Positions 2,716 to 32,255 of a DNA stretch of 32,255 bases are shown one piece after another. Under the pieces are notes generated by a model that worked only from the letters and a program-made list of their open reading frames with translations, was not told where the DNA came from and searched no databases. Position 1 is the first letter of the stretch. Every line of letters starts with the position of its first letter. A program made the translations under genes and the position numbers. Source of the stretch: Fibrobacter sp. (GTDB taxonomy: Bacteria; Fibrobacterota; Fibrobacteria; Fibrobacterales; Fibrobacteraceae); NCBI GenBank assembly GCA_017503015.1, contig JAFVTX010000070.1:1-32255 (forward strand), in the 5' to 3' direction.

Positions 2716-4221
2716 TTATTTCTTGAACCGCTTTATATCCGTGCGGTTCTTGCCGTCGGAAACCACCACGTGGTAAACGCCCGAGGCAAGGTCCTGTACA
2801 TCTATGGTCGTACTATGCACAACCCGTTGTCGCATCACCTCGCGTCCCCTTAAATTTAAAACGCGGATTTCGGCACCCCTGCTAAAAGCATTGCCCAATT
2901 CTACAGACAGATTGCCATTTGTGTAACGAATAGATGTTCCATAAGAATACGCATTTGGGTCAGATGCTAGAGCCTCCGGTCCATCAGGACTGTCGGGTTC
3001 CTGGGTTTCCTGGGGCAAAATTCTCCACATCTGGTTCCATTCCCAATCGTCGGCCCAACTCTGCACTACCCGTTCGCCATCAGTTGTAGCACGCAGGTAC
3101 ATGTTGCTGTTCTGCATTTTCATGCGCACCACGGTTCCCTCATAGCCCGCCTGCTTTTCCATAATCACCTTCTGATGGGCACCGCCGTTCCACTGGTAGA
3201 GCCCCATGGTGACACCCGCATCTTTCGATTCATTGGGAACATCAATGGAAAGGTCTCCGAAACCGAAACGGAAAGTTGTCGAAGAAAGAGGCGTTACCAC
3301 CACCAAGGCACTGTCGCTATCGCAGTCCCCCAGAGCTAATTTATTTTCTGACGTGCGAACCATGCAGGTGCCAAAGTTCATGGAGAAAATCTTCACCGTA
3401 TCGGGCTTGGCGGGTTTCGCCTGCCACACGCGAATCCAGTCCGCTTCGAAGTAGGCGGGCTTGTCCGCCGTAATTTCGATGTCGTCGCCCGCCCAGCCCC
3501 CAATGGACAAGTTTACAATGATGTACTGCGCCGTAAGCTGGCTGATTTCGGTCGGGCGGTTGTAACTGGCAAACCTCTTGTCATCAAAGTAAAAGCTGAG
3601 GGTAGATTCGTCCCACTCTACGCCGTAATTGTGAAAATCTGCGGAGCGGTCCACATCATCGTCCTTGTGTCCACCAAAGGAGGCCTCGTGATCCCAAGCC
3701 GAACCGTGGCCGCTGTACCAACTGGAATCCGTATAGTGCAGATAGTAATGGTGCTGCTTGCGAGATGCCGGAATTTCCAGAATGTCAATCTCCGGAGGCC
3801 ATCCGTCTTGCAAAGTCCAAAAAGCAGGCCAGGTCCCTTTTTGCGACGGAGCCTTGAAACGGCCCTCGATGTAGCCGTACTTGACCTCGAAATGCCCCCT
3901 GGTGTCGATAGCCCCCGAAGTGTAATCTACCGGGATTTCTTTGTTGTTAAATTTAGCCTTGCGGCCGTTGGCATCGGGATGGGTTTTCTTTTCACCCTTG
4001 AGTTTCAGGGTGCCATCGGAGACAATGACATTTTCTTCGGCACAGTAGGCACGGTGGTTGTGGGTGGGGCCCCAATTGTAGGTCGGGTTCCACTTGCTCT
4101 TGTCGAGAGAAGTCCCGTCGAAGTTATCTTCGAACACCTTTTCCCAACCACCGAAATTAGCAGGTGGCTCTGCAAAGGAAAGGGACACCGCGATGGCAGC
4201 CAGTAGAACTACAAACAACAT
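2716..4221 (-). CDS. Secreted GH16 beta-glucanase with lectin-like domain and C-terminal sorting tail
   Basis: 501 residues. A signal peptide (about 1-17, LFVVLLAAIAVSLSFA) is followed by a GH16 catalytic domain (about 22-272). The active-site strand is EIDILE with E144, D146 and E149; the extra residue before the last Glu is the laminarinase (beta-1,3-glucanase) form, not the lichenase form EIDIE. Residues about 275-405 contain QWNGGAHQK and W-x-W spacing like a ricin-type beta-trefoil carbohydrate-binding module (tentative). The last ~70 residues (IRVLNLRGREV, then LASGVYHVVVSDG, ending KRFKK) resemble a type IX secretion C-terminal sorting domain. It is monocistronic, with its own promoter at 4266-4293. 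Likely role: release of glucose oligomers from beta-glucans outside the cell. GH16 is certain; substrate and module names are inferred. Confidence 0.93.
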   Translation of the reverse strand: MLFVVLLAAIAVSLSFAEPPANFGGWEKVFEDNFDGTSLDKSKWNPTYNWGPTHNHRAYCAEENVIVSDGTLKLKGEKKTHPDANGRKAKFNNKEIPVDYTSGAIDTRGHFEVKYGYIEGRFKAPSQKGTWPAFWTLQDGWPPEIDILEIPASRKQHHYYLHYTDSSWYSGHGSAWDHEASFGGHKDDDVDRSADFHNYGVEWDESTLSFYFDDKRFASYNRPTEISQLTAQYIIVNLSIGGWAGDDIEITADKPAYFEADWIRVWQAKPAKPDTVKIFSMNFGTCMVRTSENKLALGDCDSDSALVVVTPLSSTTFRFGFGDLSIDVPNESKDAGVTMGLYQWNGGAHQKVIMEKQAGYEGTVVRMKMQNSNMYLRATTDGERVVQSWADDWEWNQMWRILPQETQEPDSPDGPEALASDPNAYSYGTSIRYTNGNLSVELGNAFSRGAEIRVLNLRGREVMRQRVVHSTTIDVQDLASGVYHVVVSDGKNRTDIKRFKK

Positions 4222-30774: not shown

Positions 30775-31941
30775 ATGGGATTTTTGAAAACTGCGACTTT
30801 GTGCCTCGGTCTGGGAGTGCTGGTTGCGTCTGCCTATATCGTCAAGGAAGGCGACACCCTCTGGGACCTGAGTGACGAATTCCTGAACGACCCCTTCGCC
30901 TGGCCCGACCTGTGGGAAAACAACAGGCATATCCAGGACCCCCACTGGATTTATCCAGGTGACTCCATCTACTTCGGGGACAGCACCCGAGAAGAACCTG
31001 TAGCGATCCCCACCACCCAGAACCGCTACCCTTGCGGCGGCGCCATCGCCGACACCAACCTCCCTAAGGGCGTTTCCGCCGTAGGTTGCGACCAAGGCGA
31101 TGCACGGAACGGCGACTTCGAAAACATGTTGGGTGACCTGCGCAACCGCGACAAGCGCCCCAAGAAAACAAAAAAAGACGATGTATACTATTACAATAAA
31201 CGTCCCGCACCCAAGATTTTTAATGGTTATTACCAGATTCTCGCCCCAGAGATTTACGATGTTGACGCCCTGAAAAAAGACGAAACATTCTTTTCTATCC
31301 GCTCTGGAGAACGCAAAGAACCGATTCTCCATATTCCTGAAATGGAAGTGGTGGTTGGAGTCGGAAAAAAGACCGACATCAAGGCAAAAAAAGGTGATCT
31401 TGTGGAGATTCTTGACGCCCGGGCCATCGAGGTTCCCGGCACTCACGGAAAGAGTTTTGACACCTACGCCATGCTCAGACTTTCGGGTATTGCAAAAATC
31501 ACAGCCGTTGGCGACACACTGTCCCGCGCCCAAATTGTGCAAAGCTTCAGAGAAATCAAGATCAACCAGTCTAAGGCCCGCATGAAAAAACAGCCCAAGG
31601 TTTTAGATGTAAAAGGTTACGGCAAAGAACAGGAAGCCGACATTGCGGAAATGGCCACCATACGTTACGCCATGGATCCCATGTTGATTATTGGAGCATA
31701 TTCTTATGTACTCATCGACAAGGGTAAAGAAGACAAATTCAAAACCGGCGATGCCATTGCCATCTGGGAAGAAGACAAGTCAGACGAAAGCATTCCGCCT
31801 CGACTCCTAGGACGGGGTATCATTGCCCGAGCTGCAGATCACGAAGCCGCCGTACTAATACGCGAAATCTATTCCAACAACCGCCGTGTGGAAATGGGAC
31901 ACAAAGTTTCCGTCACCCATAGAGCACAATTAGCCAAGTGA
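30775..31941 (+). CDS. Secreted LysM-domain protein
   Basis: 388 residues. Signal peptide (about 1-19, ending LVASA) is followed at once by one LysM peptidoglycan-binding domain (about 20-67: YIVKEGDTLWDLSDEFLNDPFAWPDLWENNRHIQDPHWIYPGDSIYF). A basic linker (KRPKKTKKDD) and a large mixed domain (about 140-388) of unknown type follow, similar in layout to LysM proteins that are fused to OmpA-like or beta-rich domains in FCB bacteria. It probably anchors to peptidoglycan in the periplasm. The start follows CAAGGATTACT (ribosome binding site AAGGA, spacing 7). A small membrane peptide gene overlaps its stop. Confidence 0.85.
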   Translation: MGFLKTATLCLGLGVLVASAYIVKEGDTLWDLSDEFLNDPFAWPDLWENNRHIQDPHWIYPGDSIYFGDSTREEPVAIPTTQNRYPCGGAIADTNLPKGVSAVGCDQGDARNGDFENMLGDLRNRDKRPKKTKKDDVYYYNKRPAPKIFNGYYQILAPEIYDVDALKKDETFFSIRSGERKEPILHIPEMEVVVGVGKKTDIKAKKGDLVEILDARAIEVPGTHGKSFDTYAMLRLSGIAKITAVGDTLSRAQIVQSFREIKINQSKARMKKQPKVLDVKGYGKEQEADIAEMATIRYAMDPMLIIGAYSYVLIDKGKEDKFKTGDAIAIWEEDKSDESIPPRLLGRGIIARAADHEAAVLIREIYSNNRRVEMGHKVSVTHRAQLAK

Positions 31942-32054
31942 CAAAGACTCTAATAGCGATATCGGCCCTGGCCTTTTCATTGGTCACCTTACTAATGGGG
32001 ACCAGCGTTCTCATATTGTTGTTCCCCAGCATTTCGTCGCACCTCCCCTTCTAG
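31938..32054 (+). CDS. 38-residue single-helix membrane peptide, GTG start
   Basis: The GTG at 31938 overlaps the LysM stop (GTGA). The product begins VTKTLIAISALAF and is one long hydrophobic helix (about 5-32) ending in a short polar tail (SSHLPF). It has no homologue I recognise. The overlap with the LysM frame and the hydrophobic pattern support translation by coupling, but a chance ORF of this size cannot be ruled out. The next frame opens 16 nt downstream after a strong ribosome binding site. Confidence 0.5.
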   Translation: MTKTLIAISALAFSLVTLLMGTSVLILLFPSISSHLPF

Positions 32055-32058
32055 ATTT

Positions 32059-32067
32059 AGGAGGTGA
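32059..32067 (+). promoter_or_regulatory. Strong ribosome binding site that selects a CTG start
   Basis: AGGAGGTGA is a near-perfect anti-16S match with 6 nt from GGAGG to CTG 32071. No ATG, GTG or TTG in the correct frame lies at a usable distance. GTG at 32064 overlaps the site itself and opens a short unrelated frame. Confidence 0.6.
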
Positions 32068-32070
32068 CGG

Positions 32071-32255
32071 CTGAGAATCTCACGCAACAACCTCCTGTTC
32101 TTCGGCTTTTTTGCTGGAGCCATCGTTTTGCCGATGGCAATTCTTTCGTATTTGAGTTTTCGTAACATTCAAAACGAAAATTACCTTATCCAAAAGAACT
32201 TTGACGAAAACAGAATCTCGCTGCAAAAAGAACTGGAAGACGCTCTTGAAAAGGA
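32071..32255 (+). CDS. Membrane/coiled-coil protein, probable CTG start, 3'-truncated
   Basis: Open to the right edge. An in-frame TGA at 32065-32067 means the start must be at or after 32068. A strong ribosome binding site AGGAGGTGA (32059-32067) is 6 nt before CTG 32071. The codons read LRISRNNLLFFGFFAGAIVLP, a charged tail then a membrane helix (about 7-29), then a helical coiled-coil-like region (FDENRISLQKELEDALEK). There is no ATG, GTG or TTG that keeps the helix. The best start is therefore CTG. It looks like the N-terminus of a sensor-type or envelope protein; too little is visible to name it. Confidence 0.6.
   Translation, partial: MRISRNNLLFFGFFAGAIVLPMAILSYLSFRNIQNENYLIQKNFDENRISLQKELEDALEK

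Follow-up and report, generated by a model that had tools for sequence, protein, structure and literature searches.

CTG makes up 0.024% of annotated bacterial start codons, and CUG gives 0.86% of the output of AUG (both figures as quoted in PMC11497404). Only two AUG-to-CUG switches are reported among 61,358 ancestral AUG starts by Belinky et al. (PMC5622118). The nearest documented case found to the locus described here is the rep gene of RepFIB in F-like plasmids, in which, as here, a CTG is combined with a good ribosome binding site (PMC11983097). The CTG start of RepFIB rep is thought to set low expression; a standard codon downstream misleads annotation, and effects of hairpins at the start are noted (PMC11983097). 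The dnaA gene of Caulobacter has a CUG, accompanied by a Shine-Dalgarno sequence, that binds the 30S subunit in vitro and is unused in vivo (PMC8443254). Translational coupling of neighbouring genes is described by RNA-unfolding and reinitiation models, both reviewed in PMC12548453.

The locus lies at the end of a 32,255-nucleotide stretch of DNA (the window), which is one entire Fibrobacter contig. The original prediction placed the start of an open reading frame at CTG 32071, six nucleotides after AGGAGG and behind an in-frame stop at 32065, and each of these elements was confirmed in the sequence of the window, in which positions 32059-32073 of the + strand read AGGAGGTGACGGCTG (AGGAGG, TGACGG, CTG). 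The features referred to below are as follows.

30775..31941, + strand: LysM-domain protein gene; its stop TGA and the small ORF's GTG share bases (GTGA)
31938..32054, + strand: small ORF of 38 amino acids, GTG to TAG, between the LysM gene and the kinase
32036..32046, + strand: upstream arm, GTCG+CACCTCC, complementary to CGGC 32068-32071 and GGAGGTG 32060-32066
32059..32067, + strand: Shine-Dalgarno element AGGAGGTGA, as read from the sequence, with AGGAGG at 32059-32064
32065-32067, + strand: in-frame TGA, part of the Shine-Dalgarno element, two codons 5' of the CTG
32071..32073, + strand: CTG, proposed start codon of the histidine kinase, six bases after AGGAGG
32071..32255, + strand: sensor histidine kinase, first 61 codons, frame open to the contig end at 32255
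32090..32096, + strand: downstream arm ACCTCCT, codons 7-9, complementary to AGGAGGT 32059-32065

The predicted absence of ATG, GTG and TTG before the membrane helix was also borne out: the earliest in-frame standard starts after the CTG are TTG 32128 (codon 20) and ATG 32134 (codon 22), both within the first hydrophobic stretch of the kinase. For comparison, AGGAGG stands 5-16 bases 5' of about 0.1% of 1603 internal ATG codons in 404 kb of the window's genome.

The kinase gene is cut at codon 61, and its remainder is found at the beginning of another contig from this genome (G000:C52; L146:2-1843). This remainder encodes HisKA and HATPase_c domains and is directly followed by a Response_reg/Trans_reg_C regulator; the full-length orthologue P0001 (680 aa) likewise contains HisKA and HATPase_c. 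On the basis of these two domains and the adjoining response regulator, the gene was classed as a two-component sensor histidine kinase. PnpS/PhoR-like sensor kinases share all three characters with it, but its orthologue reached neither the PnpS nor the PhoR equivalog cut-off of NCBIfam (211.4 bits against 400, and 200 against 334.2), and the equivalogs matched the catalytic half of P0001 alone, leaving the sensor part without assignment.

The kinase gene was found in 79 of the 80 genus genomes, the exception being G017 (62% complete), and 80 loci were read from these 79 genomes because G050 has two. The codon at the position of the CTG is ATG in 55 of the 80 loci, CTG in 13, GTG in 4, ATT, ATC or ATA in 6 and ACG in 2, and all six ATT/ATC/ATA loci have an ATG two codons 5'. 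In 65 of the 80 loci a standard start (ATG or GTG) occupies either this codon or a position one or two codons 5' of it. This comparison of N-termini, which had been put forward as a check on the original prediction, supports CTG 32071 as the start: homologues begin at or just above the CTG codon and not further downstream. With ATG or GTG starts of homologues at the same place, and no standard start between the upstream in-frame stop and the conserved coding sequence, the kinase gene very probably starts at CTG 32071; on sequence evidence the start is well supported, and CTG would be the codon used.

A TGA at -6 and GGAGGTGAC are present in 13 of 13 CTG loci. The whole AGGAGG is present in 12 of them, with GGGAGG in G084, and the first standard codon lies at 20, 22 or 28. 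A set of 55 named relatives, all Fibrobacter except three assigned to Fibrobacterales, Fibrobacteria or Fibrobacteraceae, overlaps the 80 loci; CTG was found in 12 of the 55, and these are the same assemblies and were not added to the 13. Six relatives (L102, L103, L105, L106, L111 and L115, each near base 300) have an in-frame GTG two codons 5' of the ATG, the pair reading GTGACGATG or GTGGCGATG, and either codon could be the start. Assembly RGIG6669 (G050) has two kinase loci, L043 and L075; one is of CTG type and the other, of ATG type, belongs to a distant branch, reflecting either a mixed bin or a second copy.

The 12 CTG rows group as a single clade (gut Fibrobacter group; support 100/100) in the tree built from 55 kinases. 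The window copy, being partial, was omitted from the tree and from the 11-gene counts given here, as was L040 (461 codons) from the latter. The 11 full-length CTG genes are 72-99% identical to each other and differ at fourfold sites by a median of 0.54 (55 pairs); of their 64 always-leucine columns 3, codon 1 among them, show an unchanged codon. TTG, one transition from CTG and a better start, is absent at codon 1 from the 13 CTG loci, as is ATG. Mean differences at codon positions 1, 2 and 3 in these 11 genes are 0.118, 0.066 and 0.461, and the kinase protein is therefore under selection. The CTG loci have one origin, so that 13 loci are not 13 independent events. Eleven of the 12 named CTG-clade copies have 680 codons. 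The CTG-clade frame of L040 (G074) closes with TGA after 461 codons, before the catalytic half ends, which represents decay or an assembly error.

Sister to the CTG clade (99/94) are the two ACG rows, L074 and L078 (near base 3000; also listed as L134 and L139, near base 300), which are 96% identical and were counted as one lineage. Neither has ATG, GTG or TTG between an in-frame TAG at -21 and a GTG at codon 19. In both, GGAGGG stands four bases 5' of the in-frame ACG, and a CTG lies four codons 5' of the ACG.

Shine-Dalgarno energies were calculated with an assumed anti-Shine-Dalgarno sequence, because the 16S 3' end was sought in three genomes and matched in none. The 15 loci without a standard start (13 CTG and the sister pair) have the strongest Shine-Dalgarno sites of the 80, at -9.8 to -10.2 kcal/mol; the 65 other loci have a median of -5.3 and a best value of -8.4 kcal/mol. 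This association reflects one or two evolutionary events, not fifteen. A very strong Shine-Dalgarno sequence, associated as it is with the missing standard start, would make up for the weak CTG codon. The same trend, a weaker start codon with a stronger Shine-Dalgarno sequence, is described for GUG and UUG starts (PMC5622118).

The 38-aa ORF upstream is hydrophobic, as judged by eye, and has a homologue in 60 of the 80 genus loci (47 contain SVLI, and 13 more were accepted as variants on inspection by eye); the 61st ORF, from G047, belongs to the LysM gene and was not counted. No Pfam or NCBIfam model matched the 38-aa ORF. Within the CTG clade it varies mainly at synonymous sites, and its protein may be a partner of the neighbouring kinase. 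In the 13 CTG loci, 16 bases lie between its stop (TAG 32052-32054 in the window) and the CTG, and this closeness of an upstream stop to a downstream start is that of a coupled gene pair.

Both arms that could pair with the Shine-Dalgarno sequence are in coding sequence. CACCTCC 32040-32046 lies within the tail of the 38-aa ORF, whose TAG falls in the loop of the predicted upstream-arm hairpin. All 13 CTG loci carry the downstream ACCTCCT, with CTC as codon 8, and it occurs in 1 of the 67 remaining loci. The 37-base fold of the window was predicted at -16.8 kcal/mol (z -3.55), and longer folds gave z -2.38 (66 bases) and -2.44 (141 bases); for an 85-base fold, 32 of 300 shuffles were as low. 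Each of the two seven-pair stems was paired in 91 of 91 cells, against 27 to 67 for slid controls. The outer four stem pairs hold in 50 of 52 cells and break in 2, and changes in the stems are one-sided, with no compensatory pairs. Blocking the upstream arm did not free the window's Shine-Dalgarno sequence in the predicted folds.

When synonymous codons in the tail of the small ORF were reshuffled, no genus-wide signal was seen of codon choice hiding the Shine-Dalgarno sequence (6 of 60 at p<=0.1, median 0.52). In 12 CTG loci the values were 0.04-0.43, that of G087 not being comparable since the TGA at -6 was taken as the small ORF's stop. The mean unpaired Shine-Dalgarno value was 0.00-0.01 in 12 of 13 CTG loci, against 0.06-0.07 after synonymous reshuffling. 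Codons 33-38 of the small ORF, which form the arm, include 2 of 6 that vary, against 25 of 31 in codons 2-32 (by simple count). Kinase codons 1-10 are conserved, 4 of 9 being unchanged, and are not the most conserved stretch of the kinase, 13 of 439 windows along it being as good or better. As predictors of coupling, the folding statistics are mixed.

We propose that CTG 32071 would be read as methionine by the ordinary initiator tRNA, and that the Shine-Dalgarno sequence would be folded away, its partner being the small ORF tail in one fold and codons 7-9 in another, so that free 30S subunits would seldom reach it. A ribosome ending the small ORF at TAG 32052-32054 would cover the Shine-Dalgarno sequence, hold both locks open and, having terminated, restart at the CTG 16 bases on. 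Synthesis of the kinase would then be tied to translation of the small ORF, and the poor codon would keep the kinase scarce relative to the small protein. Coupling of the CTG start to translation of the 38-aa ORF appears likely, and for the CTG start and the coupling taken together our confidence is moderate. The conserved CTG and the strong binding site that is probably folded away suggest that low kinase output is deliberate. A further reading, a non-AUG switch of long standing, is more speculative, and as a whole we consider it improbable. The common ancestor of the CTG clade and the sister pair might have lost its ATG, the kinase since being made only by ribosomes arriving from the small membrane protein, and a double lock (small ORF or codons 7-9) would fix a high ratio of small protein to kinase.

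Initiation at the CTG could also take place independently of the small ORF, the strong Shine-Dalgarno sequence recruiting free 30S subunits and the complementary stretches following from the encoded peptides. Reshuffled synonymous codons do hide the Shine-Dalgarno sequence nearly as well (0.06-0.07 against 0.00-0.01), and the protein motif Asn-Asn-Leu-Leu constrains codons 6-9. An uncoupled start fits less well, however, with CTC at codon 8 in every CTG locus and ACCTCCT in only 1 of 67 others, with the low variation of the small ORF arm (2 of 6 codons against 25 of 31 elsewhere), or with predicted folds that keep the Shine-Dalgarno sequence paired when the upstream arm is blocked. We regard an uncoupled CTG start as possible, if rather unlikely.

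The remaining explanations do without the CTG as a genuine start. TTG 32128 and ATG 32134 are standard codons in frame, and the kinase might begin at either, inside the helix, with the CTG an untranslated leftover. Yet the TTG at codon 20 is shared by 8 of the 13 CTG loci and the ATG at codon 22 by 12, and in G084 the first standard codon comes no earlier than 28. Codons 2-19 change mostly at synonymous sites, preserving the amino acids, and 65 of 80 homologues begin at codon 1 or above; an internal start was rejected as very unlikely. Initiation at the out-of-frame GTG 32064, with a subsequent +1 frameshift to reach the kinase frame, would account for the presence of that GTG, within GGAGGTGAC, in 13 of 13 CTG loci, and recalls the six relatives with an in-frame GTG at -6. 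GTG 32064 nevertheless overlaps the Shine-Dalgarno sequence, which leaves no spacing, and no slippery site was apparent by eye, so that this route was rejected as highly improbable. That the CTG genomes are metagenome assemblies, and that the frame of L040 ends early, could point to a sequencing error or a decayed gene, but the 11 full genes are divergent (72-99% identical), 11 of the 12 named CTG-clade copies keep 680 codons and purifying selection is evident. The same CTG recurs in 13 loci, those of the window and of 12 further assemblies made in several projects, despite a fourfold divergence of about 0.54, and a sequencing error, which would have undone the original prediction, is therefore excluded; error or decay as an explanation is barely credible.

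A rough survey for further CTG starts, taking the first standard codon as the start and missing ORFs cut by contig ends, covered 239 long ORFs in 404 kb of the window's genome, window included. A single CTG with a Shine-Dalgarno sequence before the first standard codon was found; its protein, presumably RecF, matches Pfam SMC_N (RecF/RecN/SMC) from residue 28, and the candidate was rejected since its GTG at codon 26 would serve as an ordinary start. No second CTG-start case was found among these ORFs. A relaxed initiator tRNA was also rejected: a search of 7 genomes found the initiator-type GGG/CCC anticodon stem in 6, the miss being G058 (71% complete), and ARAGORN reported tRNA-Met at 3 of 3 of the stem places checked. 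A literature search on a Fibrobacter kinase start found nothing relevant.

That a regulatory gene has retained CTG across 13 genomes suggests that selection can favour a poor start codon for its own sake. With ATG, GTG, CTG and possibly ACG starts occurring naturally, the locus is suited to testing trade-offs among start codon, Shine-Dalgarno sequence and upstream ORF. Gene finders restricted to three start codons would mis-start this Fibrobacter kinase.

This is an ordinary kinase gene with a rare start that is unusually well conserved, CTG starts being already known as a rare kind. The locus is like those in which Belinky et al. (PMC5622118) describe compensation, in that a weak start is joined to a strong Shine-Dalgarno sequence; whereas CUG switches are rare in their set, one CTG is kept here across a 13-genome clade. 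In Caulobacter dnaA a standard AUG is at hand (PMC8443254), whereas the window's kinase has none, and dnaA is a caution for the CTG reading. The coupled gene pairs reviewed in PMC12548453 have, as here, an upstream stop near the next start; folding at their downstream start is opened or avoided by the upstream gene's ribosome, as would be the case here, but in the Fibrobacter locus a CTG would be the coupled start, and complements flank the Shine-Dalgarno sequence on both sides. RepFIB rep is a plasmid replication gene in which the CTG was proved by mutation and N-terminal analysis (PMC11983097), whereas the Fibrobacter gene is a chromosomal-type kinase, known from sequence, with a clade-wide CTG and a small ORF ending just 5' of it.
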